Positions 38,592 through 39,711 of a DNA stretch of 39,711 bases are shown one piece after another. Under the pieces are notes generated by a model. It was given only the letters and a program-made list of their open reading frames with translations, did no database searches and was not told the DNA's origin. The stretch covers positions 1 to 39,711 of the forward strand of contig CALXUN010000016.1 in the NCBI GenBank assembly GCA_944391705.1, written 5' to 3'. A program made the position numbers and the translations under genes. Positions within the stretch are counted from its first letter, which is position 1, and each line of letters opens with the position of its first letter. Origin of the DNA: an uncultured Alphaproteobacteria bacterium (GTDB lineage: Bacteria > Pseudomonadota > Alphaproteobacteria > RF32 > CAG-239).

Positions 38592-38840
38592 TTAAGCATC
38601 AATATCTTCAAAGCGGATAACCACACGTTTTTCAAATGCGGCGGCAATGAGATACAGATAATATATATCAAGAAATCCTTTGCCGATTTCCCAACGCTCA
38701 ACCAGTATAGGCGGAACATTGGCCTTGTGGCTTAAGATTTCCAGACTCATTTTATGCTGACGGCGCAGTTCGTATATTTGCTGCCCGACTTCCCGGATGG
38801 TTTGTTTGCGGTTTTTTACCGATGTTTTTTTATCAAACAT
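38592..38840 (-). CDS. XRE-family helix-turn-helix protein
   Basis: 82 residues from ATG 38840, chosen because AAAGGAG lies nine bases before it; ATGs at 38846 and 38867 are also in frame. The helix-turn-helix core reads VGQQIYELRRQHKMSLEILSHKANVPPILVERWEIGKGFLDIYYLYLIAAAF, similar to the Cro/CI type DNA-binding domain. The rest is a short tail (VVIRFEDIDA). It probably binds DNA as a small regulator; its target is unknown. Directly upstream, on the same strand, lies a candidate RNA leader with a terminator hairpin. Confidence 0.8.
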   Translation of the reverse strand: MFDKKTSVKNRKQTIREVGQQIYELRRQHKMSLEILSHKANVPPILVERWEIGKGFLDIYYLYLIAAAFEKRVVIRFEDIDA

Positions 38841-38881
38841 ATTCATAAGCTCCTTTCTTTTGTTCATATCAAAATTAAAAC

Positions 38882-39036
38882 AAAAACCGCTTTAGAAAAT
38901 TCCAAAGCGGAGGAGCCACAAAACTGTACAAACTCAGTCCCCGTTATTCGTACCCAAAGGTCTTATTTCCGGGACTCCTCCAAAGAAGGAGATTGTTTGT
39001 ATGATGTCTTGTGGACACCACCGTCAAACGACGGCA
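38882..39036 (-). ncRNA. candidate structured RNA or attenuator leader upstream of the XRE gene
   Basis: On the minus strand a promoter (TTGCAA at 39065-39070, TAATAT at 39043-39048, spacer 16) leads into about 155 bases with strong pairing. An 11-bp 5' hairpin covers about 39015-39040. A closing helix pairs CCACAAGAC with GTTTTGTGG and ACAAAC with GTTTGT. Inside are CTCC/GGAGG and GTCCC/GGGGAC hairpins. It ends in a terminator (CCGCTTT/AAAGCGG at 38887-38910, then T-run). GGAGGAG could instead pair with CTCCTCC just before the terminator. Size and layout also recall 6S RNA, but I cannot confirm a family. Confidence 0.55.
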
Positions 39037-39098
39037 GTGCCTATATTAAAGAAATTCCCCATTTTTGCAAGTGTTTTTATTTATCCGAAAGTACTATC

Positions 39099-39127
39099 TT
39101 GACCTTTCTCTTAAAAGTTGTTATATT
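39099..39127 (+). promoter_or_regulatory. sigma-70-like promoter of the tandem three-way-junction RNA
   Basis: TTGACC (39099-39104) and TATATT (39122-39127) with the optimal 17-base spacer. Transcription should start at about 39134, just at the first helix of the RNA. Confidence 0.75.
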
Positions 39128-39133
39128 TAATTT

Positions 39134-39324
39134 GTTTTCCAACAGGAATGAAATCGAAATCGCCTGTTTAGTATCTCTATCCGGCATGATAAACGGGATA
39201 GAGAATTGGAAAAAAGCTTTCACCAGCAGGAACGAAAGAATTTAATCGCCTGTCTGTGTATCTTTATACGGATTGCAACTTCGTATAGAGGATTGAAAGC
39301 GAGCCCCCTTCCGGGGGCTTTTTT
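39134..39324 (+). ncRNA. candidate small RNA with two tandem three-way-junction domains
   Basis: About 190 nt with its own promoter and terminator. Domain 1: outer helix TTTTCCAA/TTGGAAAA (39135-39142, 39206-39213), hairpin A CAGG/CCTG (39143, 39163), hairpin B TCTCTATCC/GGATAGAGA (39174, 39196). Domain 2: outer helix GCTTTCA/TGAAAGC (39216, 39294), hairpin A CAGG/CCTG (39227, 39249), hairpin B CTTTATACG/CGTATAGAG with one G-U (39262, 39282). The outer and B helices differ in sequence but keep pairing. CAGGAA, GAAA and ATCGCCTG are shared. No known RNA family is recognised. Confidence 0.7.
39302..39324 (+). terminator. Rho-independent terminator of the tandem-domain RNA
   Basis: AGCCCCC (39302-39308), loop TTCC, GGGGGCT (39313-39319), then six T in all. 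Only the plus strand has a T-run. Confidence 0.9.
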
Positions 39325-39711
39325 ACCTGTCAATTTTATACATGGAAGCTATTATTCTTTCTCCCTCTTGAGGAGAGGTTACCACTTTAATATCACCTTG
39401 CGGAGTTGAAGCAATATAGATATCTTGGTCATATTGTGAAACTTCTGTTGGCTTCCTTTTAATATACTTTGGAATTTGACTAACTTGTTGTTTTGTCATA
39501 TCATGCTTGTAAATAGCTTTATTTAAGCCGTAATTACTTCTTGTTCCTGTGATTTTCTTAAAGGTATTTCCGCCTGCCGCAATAATTTCTCCGTTTTCCC
39601 CTCGTATAGCCTCGCCACGCTGGAGAATAACCGTTTCACCATTATGGTTCTTCATCCTTGTAATAACATCTTTACCGCTACCTTGAAACGGGTTTTGTTT
39701 CAACCTGTCAT
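39323..39711 (-). CDS. C-terminal part of a gene leaving the window, possible toxin or phage-type domain
   Basis: The frame is open to the window edge, so the N-terminus is missing; the first in-frame TTG at 39703 is probably not the start. About 129 residues are visible, with no signal peptide or membrane helix. Features are FQGSGKDVITRMKNHNGETV, LQRGEAIRGENGEII, GTRSNYGLNKAIYKHDM and a final beta-rich stretch (DIYIASTPQGDIKVVTSPQ). The HDMTKQQVSQIPKYIKR segment loosely recalls C-terminal nuclease toxins of polymorphic or phage MuF-type proteins, but this is a weak analogy. It is convergent with the tandem-domain RNA; their 3' ends meet. Confidence 0.6.
   Translation of the reverse strand, partial: DRLKQNPFQGSGKDVITRMKNHNGETVILQRGEAIRGENGEIIAAGGNTFKKITGTRSNYGLNKAIYKHDMTKQQVSQIPKYIKRKPTEVSQYDQDIYIASTPQGDIKVVTSPQEGERIIASMYKIDR

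Follow-up and report, generated by a model that had tools for sequence, protein, structure and literature searches.

The DNA analysed here, referred to as the window, is contig CALXUN010000016.1 of an uncultured Alphaproteobacteria bacterium, taken at its whole length of 39,711 nucleotides (nt). The element in question is the RNA unit at 39099-39324, whose RNA, named RNA1, runs towards the 3' end of a toxin-like gene on the opposite strand. RNA1 is probably (with a probability of about 0.62) the immunity or antitoxin partner of a prophage-derived polymorphic ribonuclease (RNase) toxin, a role suggested by its position, its specificity for one toxin class, the protein and the second RNA (RNA2) that are its counterparts beside other classes, and the orphan copies, which fit it. 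The RNA family, its structure, its association with the toxin, the predicted toxin fold and the linkage of RNA and toxin end in a cassette were all computed.

The RNA1 family and its fold

On the forward strand, positions 39099-39324 look like a single transcription unit, in which a promoter-like sequence identified by sequence scan (TTGACC-17-TATATT, 39099-39127) precedes two three-way-junction RNA domains and a predicted intrinsic terminator (39301-39324), the U tract of which ends at 39324. A preliminary description of the sequence had proposed two such neighbouring domains, framed by a promoter of 17-base spacing and a terminator, and both domains and both signals were located. In the first domain (D1, 39135-39213), the outer helix P1 pairs TTTTCCAA (39135-39142) with TTGGAAAA (39206-39213) around hairpin A (39143-39166, CAGG-AA-TGA...TCG-CCTG) and hairpin B (39174-39204), while in the second (D2, 39216-39300) P1 is formed by GCTTTCA (39216-39222) and TGAAAGC (39294-39300) around hairpins A (39227-39252) and B (39262-39290). 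Each domain is supported by the fold, by covariance and by a separate alignment. The 191-nt unit folds at -65.3 kcal/mol, compared with a mean of -44.7 (standard deviation 4.25) for shuffled sequences (z -4.85), and none of 200 shuffles was as stable. DNA searches returned a second copy of the promoter and the first half of the unit within the same genome, with 97% identity across 88 bases, as well as copies in two genomes of the same genus, which are single domains flanked by promoter-like and terminator-like sequences. Two near-identity matches (loci L005 and L006) look like chance on reading. Upstream of many RNA1 units (for instance at L050, L051 and L061), past the -10 box and before the RNA begins, there is a palindrome around CCTTAAGG, which is a possible operator; none was seen before the unit of the window.

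The preliminary description had suggested searching related genomes with a covariance model. Such a model, built from six sequences and covering hairpins A and B only, found the domain at 69 places in 31 of the 153 genomes of the bacterial family, representing 8 of its 16 genera. Run on the window and 40 fetched regions (41 sources), it gave 74 matches, or 66 distinct rows. Among the six model sequences, 19 cells are changed on both sides of a pair, against 5.2 in shuffles; for the 66 rows, whose alignment was fitted to the model and so leans towards it, the figures are 267 and 80, paired cells make up 93.3% (69.9% in shuffles), and the signal is abolished by sliding the pairing partners. RNAalifold also recovered P1, A and B when applied to 20 selected sequences aligned separately with MAFFT; of the 25 pairs, 19 have compensatory changes. 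P1 lies outside the covariance model and was therefore tested separately: in 64 distinct units the longest helix averages 7.0 base pairs (bp) with own flanks and 5.3 bp with foreign ones, the highest of 200 shuffle means being 5.7 bp. All three helices of RNA1 covary, and since homologues show covariation the fold is not due to chance.

A scan of the whole window against Rfam 15 gave no family at or above the gathering cut-off, and in 12 homologous regions only tRNA reached it; isrB, suhB, leader peptides, tracrRNA and others, which appeared in a permissive scan of the unit, scored far under theirs. Thus two of the outcomes named beforehand as refuting a new RNA family did not occur: the homologues do have compensatory changes and no known family was matched. 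That the RNA of the window represents an RNA family is, in our judgement, practically certain.

Parts of RNA1 that are highly conserved in the 20-sequence alignment are GGAA.GAA, AATCGC and the linker GTATC. Members differ in the length of the apical loop of hairpin A, which speaks against a conserved reading frame. A single unit is about 82 nt long, and 51 of 61 clusters contain one unit, six contain two, two contain three and two contain four, some of them being cut by contig ends. The tandem pair is therefore real in the window, but it does not define the family as had been supposed. The 61 clusters exclude two of the 69 places (G126:C33, E 0.0009, and G176:C18, E 0.004) and also L139, from genome G435; the E-values of these home-made models are rough, and in these genome bins contigs often break off close to the repeats. 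By simple scans, promoter-like sites precede 30 of 53 distinct clusters (8.1 expected from shuffles) and terminators follow 36 of them (1.2 expected).

Beyond the family, a sample of the class gave matches in 6 of 385 genomes; two of these are the own genome and one of the same genus, and only G435 looks real among the other four, the matches L132, L133 and L134 being dismissed by eye. A strict RNA pattern found the own genome only among 398 genomes of the phylum. On viral contigs, stricter patterns matched nothing, and a loose one matched at least 120 stretches, of which 80 were scanned, with an unconvincing best E of 0.014 among those. Lone RNA1 copies adjoin tRNA-Lys in three genomes of one genus (L068, 5747-5828; L070, 5632-5711; L076, 6555-6637), next to a gene that by eye resembles that of a CCA-adding enzyme; in the same genus, five copies (L066, two in L067, L069 and L071) have identical cores. 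RNA1 units also lie antisense within a long open frame at L127 (5408-6012) and at L139 (7744-7806), which belongs to another family of the class and whose frame carries, by eye, a THEAGHH metallopeptidase-like motif.

The convergent toxin-like gene and its association with RNA1

Downstream of RNA1, on the opposite strand, lies the 3' part of a convergent gene (39323-39709) that runs off the contig end; its open reading frame covers 126 codons (39323-39703) and stays open up to that end, and its stop codon overlaps the U tract of the RNA terminator. The gene codes for a toxin-like C-terminal domain with a predicted BECR fold, recurrent at this place in other genomes (NYGLNK.IYKH...P.E...GQ.VY...SSMY) and here called the X domain. 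A profile, first built from the genes beside RNA1 and then run on whole genomes, gave 38 matches in 21 of the 153 genomes. A pattern scan of one genome per species (84,980 species) gave 23 loci, all from metagenome-assembled genomes: 18 are named Alphaproteobacteria and the rest Azospirillum, Rhodospirillales, Pseudomonadota or proteobacterium, with several from deer rumen or gut. No toxin relative was found on viral contigs, nor in phage and plasmid records searched by tblastn with a single query.

The X domain is left unnamed by Pfam (18 members, best E 0.032), PHROGs (0.05) and the sequences of the PDB (0.74). Its structure was predicted with AlphaFold, the best model having a predicted local distance difference test (pLDDT) score of 90.7 and two of the five models 65 or less. 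Foldseek placed a contact-dependent inhibition (CDI) toxin (probability 0.94) and HigB2 (0.92) at the head of its list, with no match at E 0.001, and a second structure aligner returned mainly RelE, HigB, BrnT, ParE, YoeB and CDI toxins; ToxN-like folds are absent from this second list, which excludes nothing. The model has helices followed by a four-strand sheet, the BECR layout seen in RelE and CdiA-CT. With moderate scores and a coherent list, the X domain is likely to be an RNase fold of the BECR type (RelE/CdiA-CT-like).

At 40 of the 61 loci, the gene that RNA1 faces at its 3' end is convergent and has an X domain, intact or broken; the domain is intact in 21 clusters, truncated or interrupted in 19 and missing in 17, and four clusters end at a contig edge. 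Seen from the toxin, 23 of the 24 X-domain matches above 140 bits have a convergent RNA1 unit within 200 nt of the domain end. The exception (G143:C31) is a frame of 161 amino acids in which the core is truncated; a remnant that folds poorly comes after it. The gap between RNA1 and an intact domain is 23-54 nt in 19 of the 21 clusters, and 115 and 164 nt in the other two. Even a divergent relative, 40% identical to the domain of the window (L127), has three RNA1 units in the same place. Conversely, none of 20 examined paralogues that share the toxin core and lack the X domain has RNA1 downstream; where these regions do have clear RNA1 matches, in L308, the toxin is downstream of them. Outside this set, a non-X toxin (G000:C10) has an RNA1 unit 179 nt away, with RNA2 in between.

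With model members left out and L127 omitted, the median RNA1 score is 63.2 bits beside broken toxins (n = 17) and 54.3 bits beside intact ones (n = 18). RNA1 is thus well kept beside broken toxins, which fits an element worth keeping by itself, as orphan immunity genes are. In Mantel tests on 18 pairs, RNA1 distances correlate with the distances of the 62 residues that end the toxin (r 0.40, p 0.0002; 0.43 as a partial correlation on the core). For the preceding 66 residues r is -0.11, and for the core the correlation is not clear (r 0.16, p 0.09; 17 pairs). Twenty pairs had been drawn up, of which L045 was dropped since it is interrupted and L072 because it diverges too far; L075 and L127 were not among the twenty. 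As RNA1 distances track the last 62 residues, the unit that is swapped appears to be the toxin end together with its RNA. Some points limit this evidence for an immunity role: the contrast between 23 of 24 and 0 of 20 (exact test, 1e-11) comes from related genomes that are not independent, the score comparison is biased since decayed RNAs escape the model, and the correlation of distances could be explained by linkage alone.

Predicted polymorphic toxins with RNA and protein partners

The putative toxins with an X domain have a variable N-terminus, a shared core and a C-terminal RNase-like domain. A profile of the core gave 47 matches in 28 of the 153 genomes; the X domain is missing from 29 of these matches, which have C-termini of several other kinds. 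A shared core with exchangeable C-terminal domains is what characterises a polymorphic toxin. Large core-bearing proteins adjoin genes for an endolysin (L302), a tail collar (L304) and a terminase (L308), which makes a prophage origin likely. One paralogue that shares the core matches PBECR2 below the threshold (E 0.085).

At the 3' end of these toxins a partner recurs, which is RNA1 for the X class, RNA2 for the Y and W classes, and a protein for the Z class. All four Z-type toxins have a convergent protein gene at 44-60 nt (one is cut by a contig end), and the three complete proteins align with each other. These genes (L294, L296, L305 and L313) code for candidate immunity proteins of 189-214 amino acids, or 130 where the contig end cuts. 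Homology of the X and Z C-termini was considered and rejected, with no alignment and an hhalign probability of 0.4%.

RNA2 is a second structured RNA downstream of Y-type toxins, for example at 1710-1821 of L002, 1628-1739 of L297 and 4884-4992 of L042. A model of three sequences gave 21 places in 17 of the 153 genomes, 10 of them above 40 bits; 14 places were read and eight weak ones of the 21 (L323-L330) were not. At six places (L297, L002, L042, L306, L307 and L339), RNA2 is directly at the stop codon of a Y- or W-type toxin or no more than 28 nt from it; it adjoins a toxin remnant in L303 and probably at one place in L336, and six places have no Y or W toxin (L335, the second of L336, L044, L039, L337 and L338). 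A toxin that is Y-like by eye (L309, 3301-4230) has no RNA2 match. In a separate alignment of 11 sequences, 19 pairs were found, 13 with compensatory changes, and the central hairpin was not recovered; the fitted alignment has 81 cells changed on both sides against 24.3. The best match of RNA2 in Rfam 15 is far below threshold, so that RNA1 and RNA2 are both absent from Rfam 15, at least at its cut-offs. We put forward tentatively that two or more unrelated structured RNAs, the three-way RNA1 for X and the multi-branched RNA2 for Y and W, replace an immunity protein which class Z has seemingly kept, and that orphan RNA arrays form a protective repertoire.

Alternative roles and known systems

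The 17 of 61 clusters without a toxin domain, the copies next to a tRNA-Lys gene in three genomes that belong to one genus and the promoter-like sites of its own would also suit RNA1 being an independent trans-acting small RNA, riding in the cassette to regulate other host or prophage genes and merely linked to the toxin 3' end. This is made unlikely by its attachment to a single C-terminal class (23 of 24, compared with none of the 20 paralogues examined) and by the different RNA or protein that other toxin classes have in the same place. Convergent genes with touching 3' ends occur in some type I modules, and the same layout here would allow the convergent transcript to repress the toxin in cis, by antisense pairing or by transcriptional interference at the shared 3' end. 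We consider this improbable, since in 11 pairs there is no excess complementarity of the RNA to its own toxin compared with others, either for the start region (mean -19.0 against -19.0 kcal/mol) or for the open reading frame (-42.5 against -41.5 kcal/mol); in the window the RNA and the toxin gene overlap in the terminator only, and covarying domains are unnecessary for antisense action. It is most improbable that the hairpins act as DNA and form a structural end for a cassette that moves or recombines. In favour of this are the joint duplication of the 3' ends of RNA and toxin and the several RNA1 matches near contig ends; against it, promoters and terminators recur, the RNA strand has frequent wobble pairs (for one pair, C-G in 31 of the 66 rows and U-G in 26) and parts of the loop and linker sequence are conserved.

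With antisense action unsupported, the simplest mode left for RNA1 as an immunity or antitoxin RNA is that it neutralises the predicted RNase directly. The untranslated RNA gene would consist of a promoter, one three-way junction of about 82 nt or two to four in tandem, and a terminator. RNA1 would be transcribed from its own promoter, probably accumulating in excess, and would bind the predicted RNase directly, either blocking its active site or serving as a decoy substrate, with hairpin A and its conserved GGAAYGAAA...AAUCGCC as the likely binding element. It would protect the producer and its kin, and persist as orphan immunity once the toxin decays. Transcription, toxicity, binding, neutralisation and the mode of toxin delivery are what we infer here. 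The presence of tandem units beside one toxin, as in known RNA antitoxins, counts in favour of this role. Because most BECR CdiA-CT toxins studied are tRNases, according to the part of PMC9086364 consulted, RNA1 might by analogy be a tRNA-sized decoy.

The comparison with type III antitoxins made in the preliminary description was a good lead to function, although it missed the convergent toxin-like gene and the immunity-like position of the RNA. As in the type III systems ToxIN, CptIN and TenpIN, there is a structured non-coding RNA with repeat units at some loci (two to four in 10 of 61 clusters, one in 51), an RNase toxin, here predicted, and a terminator at the RNA 3' end. In the portion of PMC5086642 consulted, type III RNA repeats lie upstream of the toxin and are co-transcribed with it, with a terminator between them, and the antitoxins neutralise the RNase directly. 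RNA1, in contrast, is convergent, has its own promoter and is usually one three-way-junction unit, while the toxin appears RelE/CdiA-CT-like and forms the terminal part of a larger polymorphic protein. The RNA1 locus is by definition not type III, since gene order and transcription differ. As regards ToxN, CptN and TenpN, the 18 domain members have no credible match in Pfam, and the fold matches are mainly RelE, HigB, BrnT, ParE and CDI, others not being excluded.

The AbiF/RCd22 pair of a Clostridioides difficile prophage also has an RNA beside a toxin in a prophage setting, with two copies of a conserved motif in RCd22, which neutralises AbiF by RNA-protein contact (as given in the part of PMC12373285 consulted); unlike the X domain, that toxin is of the Abi_2/AbiD/F family, and RNA1 loci match no such Rfam motif. 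The tandem glycine riboswitch differs in that RNA1 has no downstream gene on the same strand, being followed by a terminator and then the convergent gene, and no Rfam match.

The likeness to polymorphic and CDI systems (BECR CdiA-CT) extends to the shared core, interchangeable C-termini, orphan cassettes, predicted RNase fold and partner gene at the toxin 3' end; unlike those with protein immunity, two toxin classes here have an RNA partner, and the partner genes are convergent. To our knowledge, the immunity factors known for polymorphic toxins are proteins. They are also described as such in the consulted part of PMC9086364. The PBECR polyvalent phage proteins of Iyer et al. 2017 (PMC5512222) likewise have BECR-like RNase domains in phage-related multidomain proteins, but the X domain has no Pfam PBECR match, and the text of that paper covered here mentions no RNA partner. 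A literature search, with preprints and most subscription papers outside it, found no RNA partner for a polymorphic or BECR toxin among the papers listed, in several cases the first of a longer list. If the proposed role is true, some gut bacteria may guard against RNA-cutting toxins with RNA instead of protein, RNA antitoxins would gain an intercellular or phage-delivered counterpart, and searches for immunity genes restricted to proteins would miss a class. That a single toxin family has classes with an RNA partner and classes with a protein partner would then also allow one to ask directly how one kind of antidote replaces another.

Another structured, terminator-ended stretch is found on the reverse strand at 38880-39060, divergent from RNA1 and upstream of a small helix-turn-helix gene (38592-38867). 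Its part at 38884-39016 folds with a z of -4.93, none of 200 shuffles being as stable, and the copy of the same stretch in L002 has a z of -2.25. This is possibly a third RNA family, with relatives in 30 of the 153 family genomes and up to seven matches per genome; in the own genome, copies adjoin three RNA1 loci (on contigs C16, C10 and C2) and two more lie on C1.
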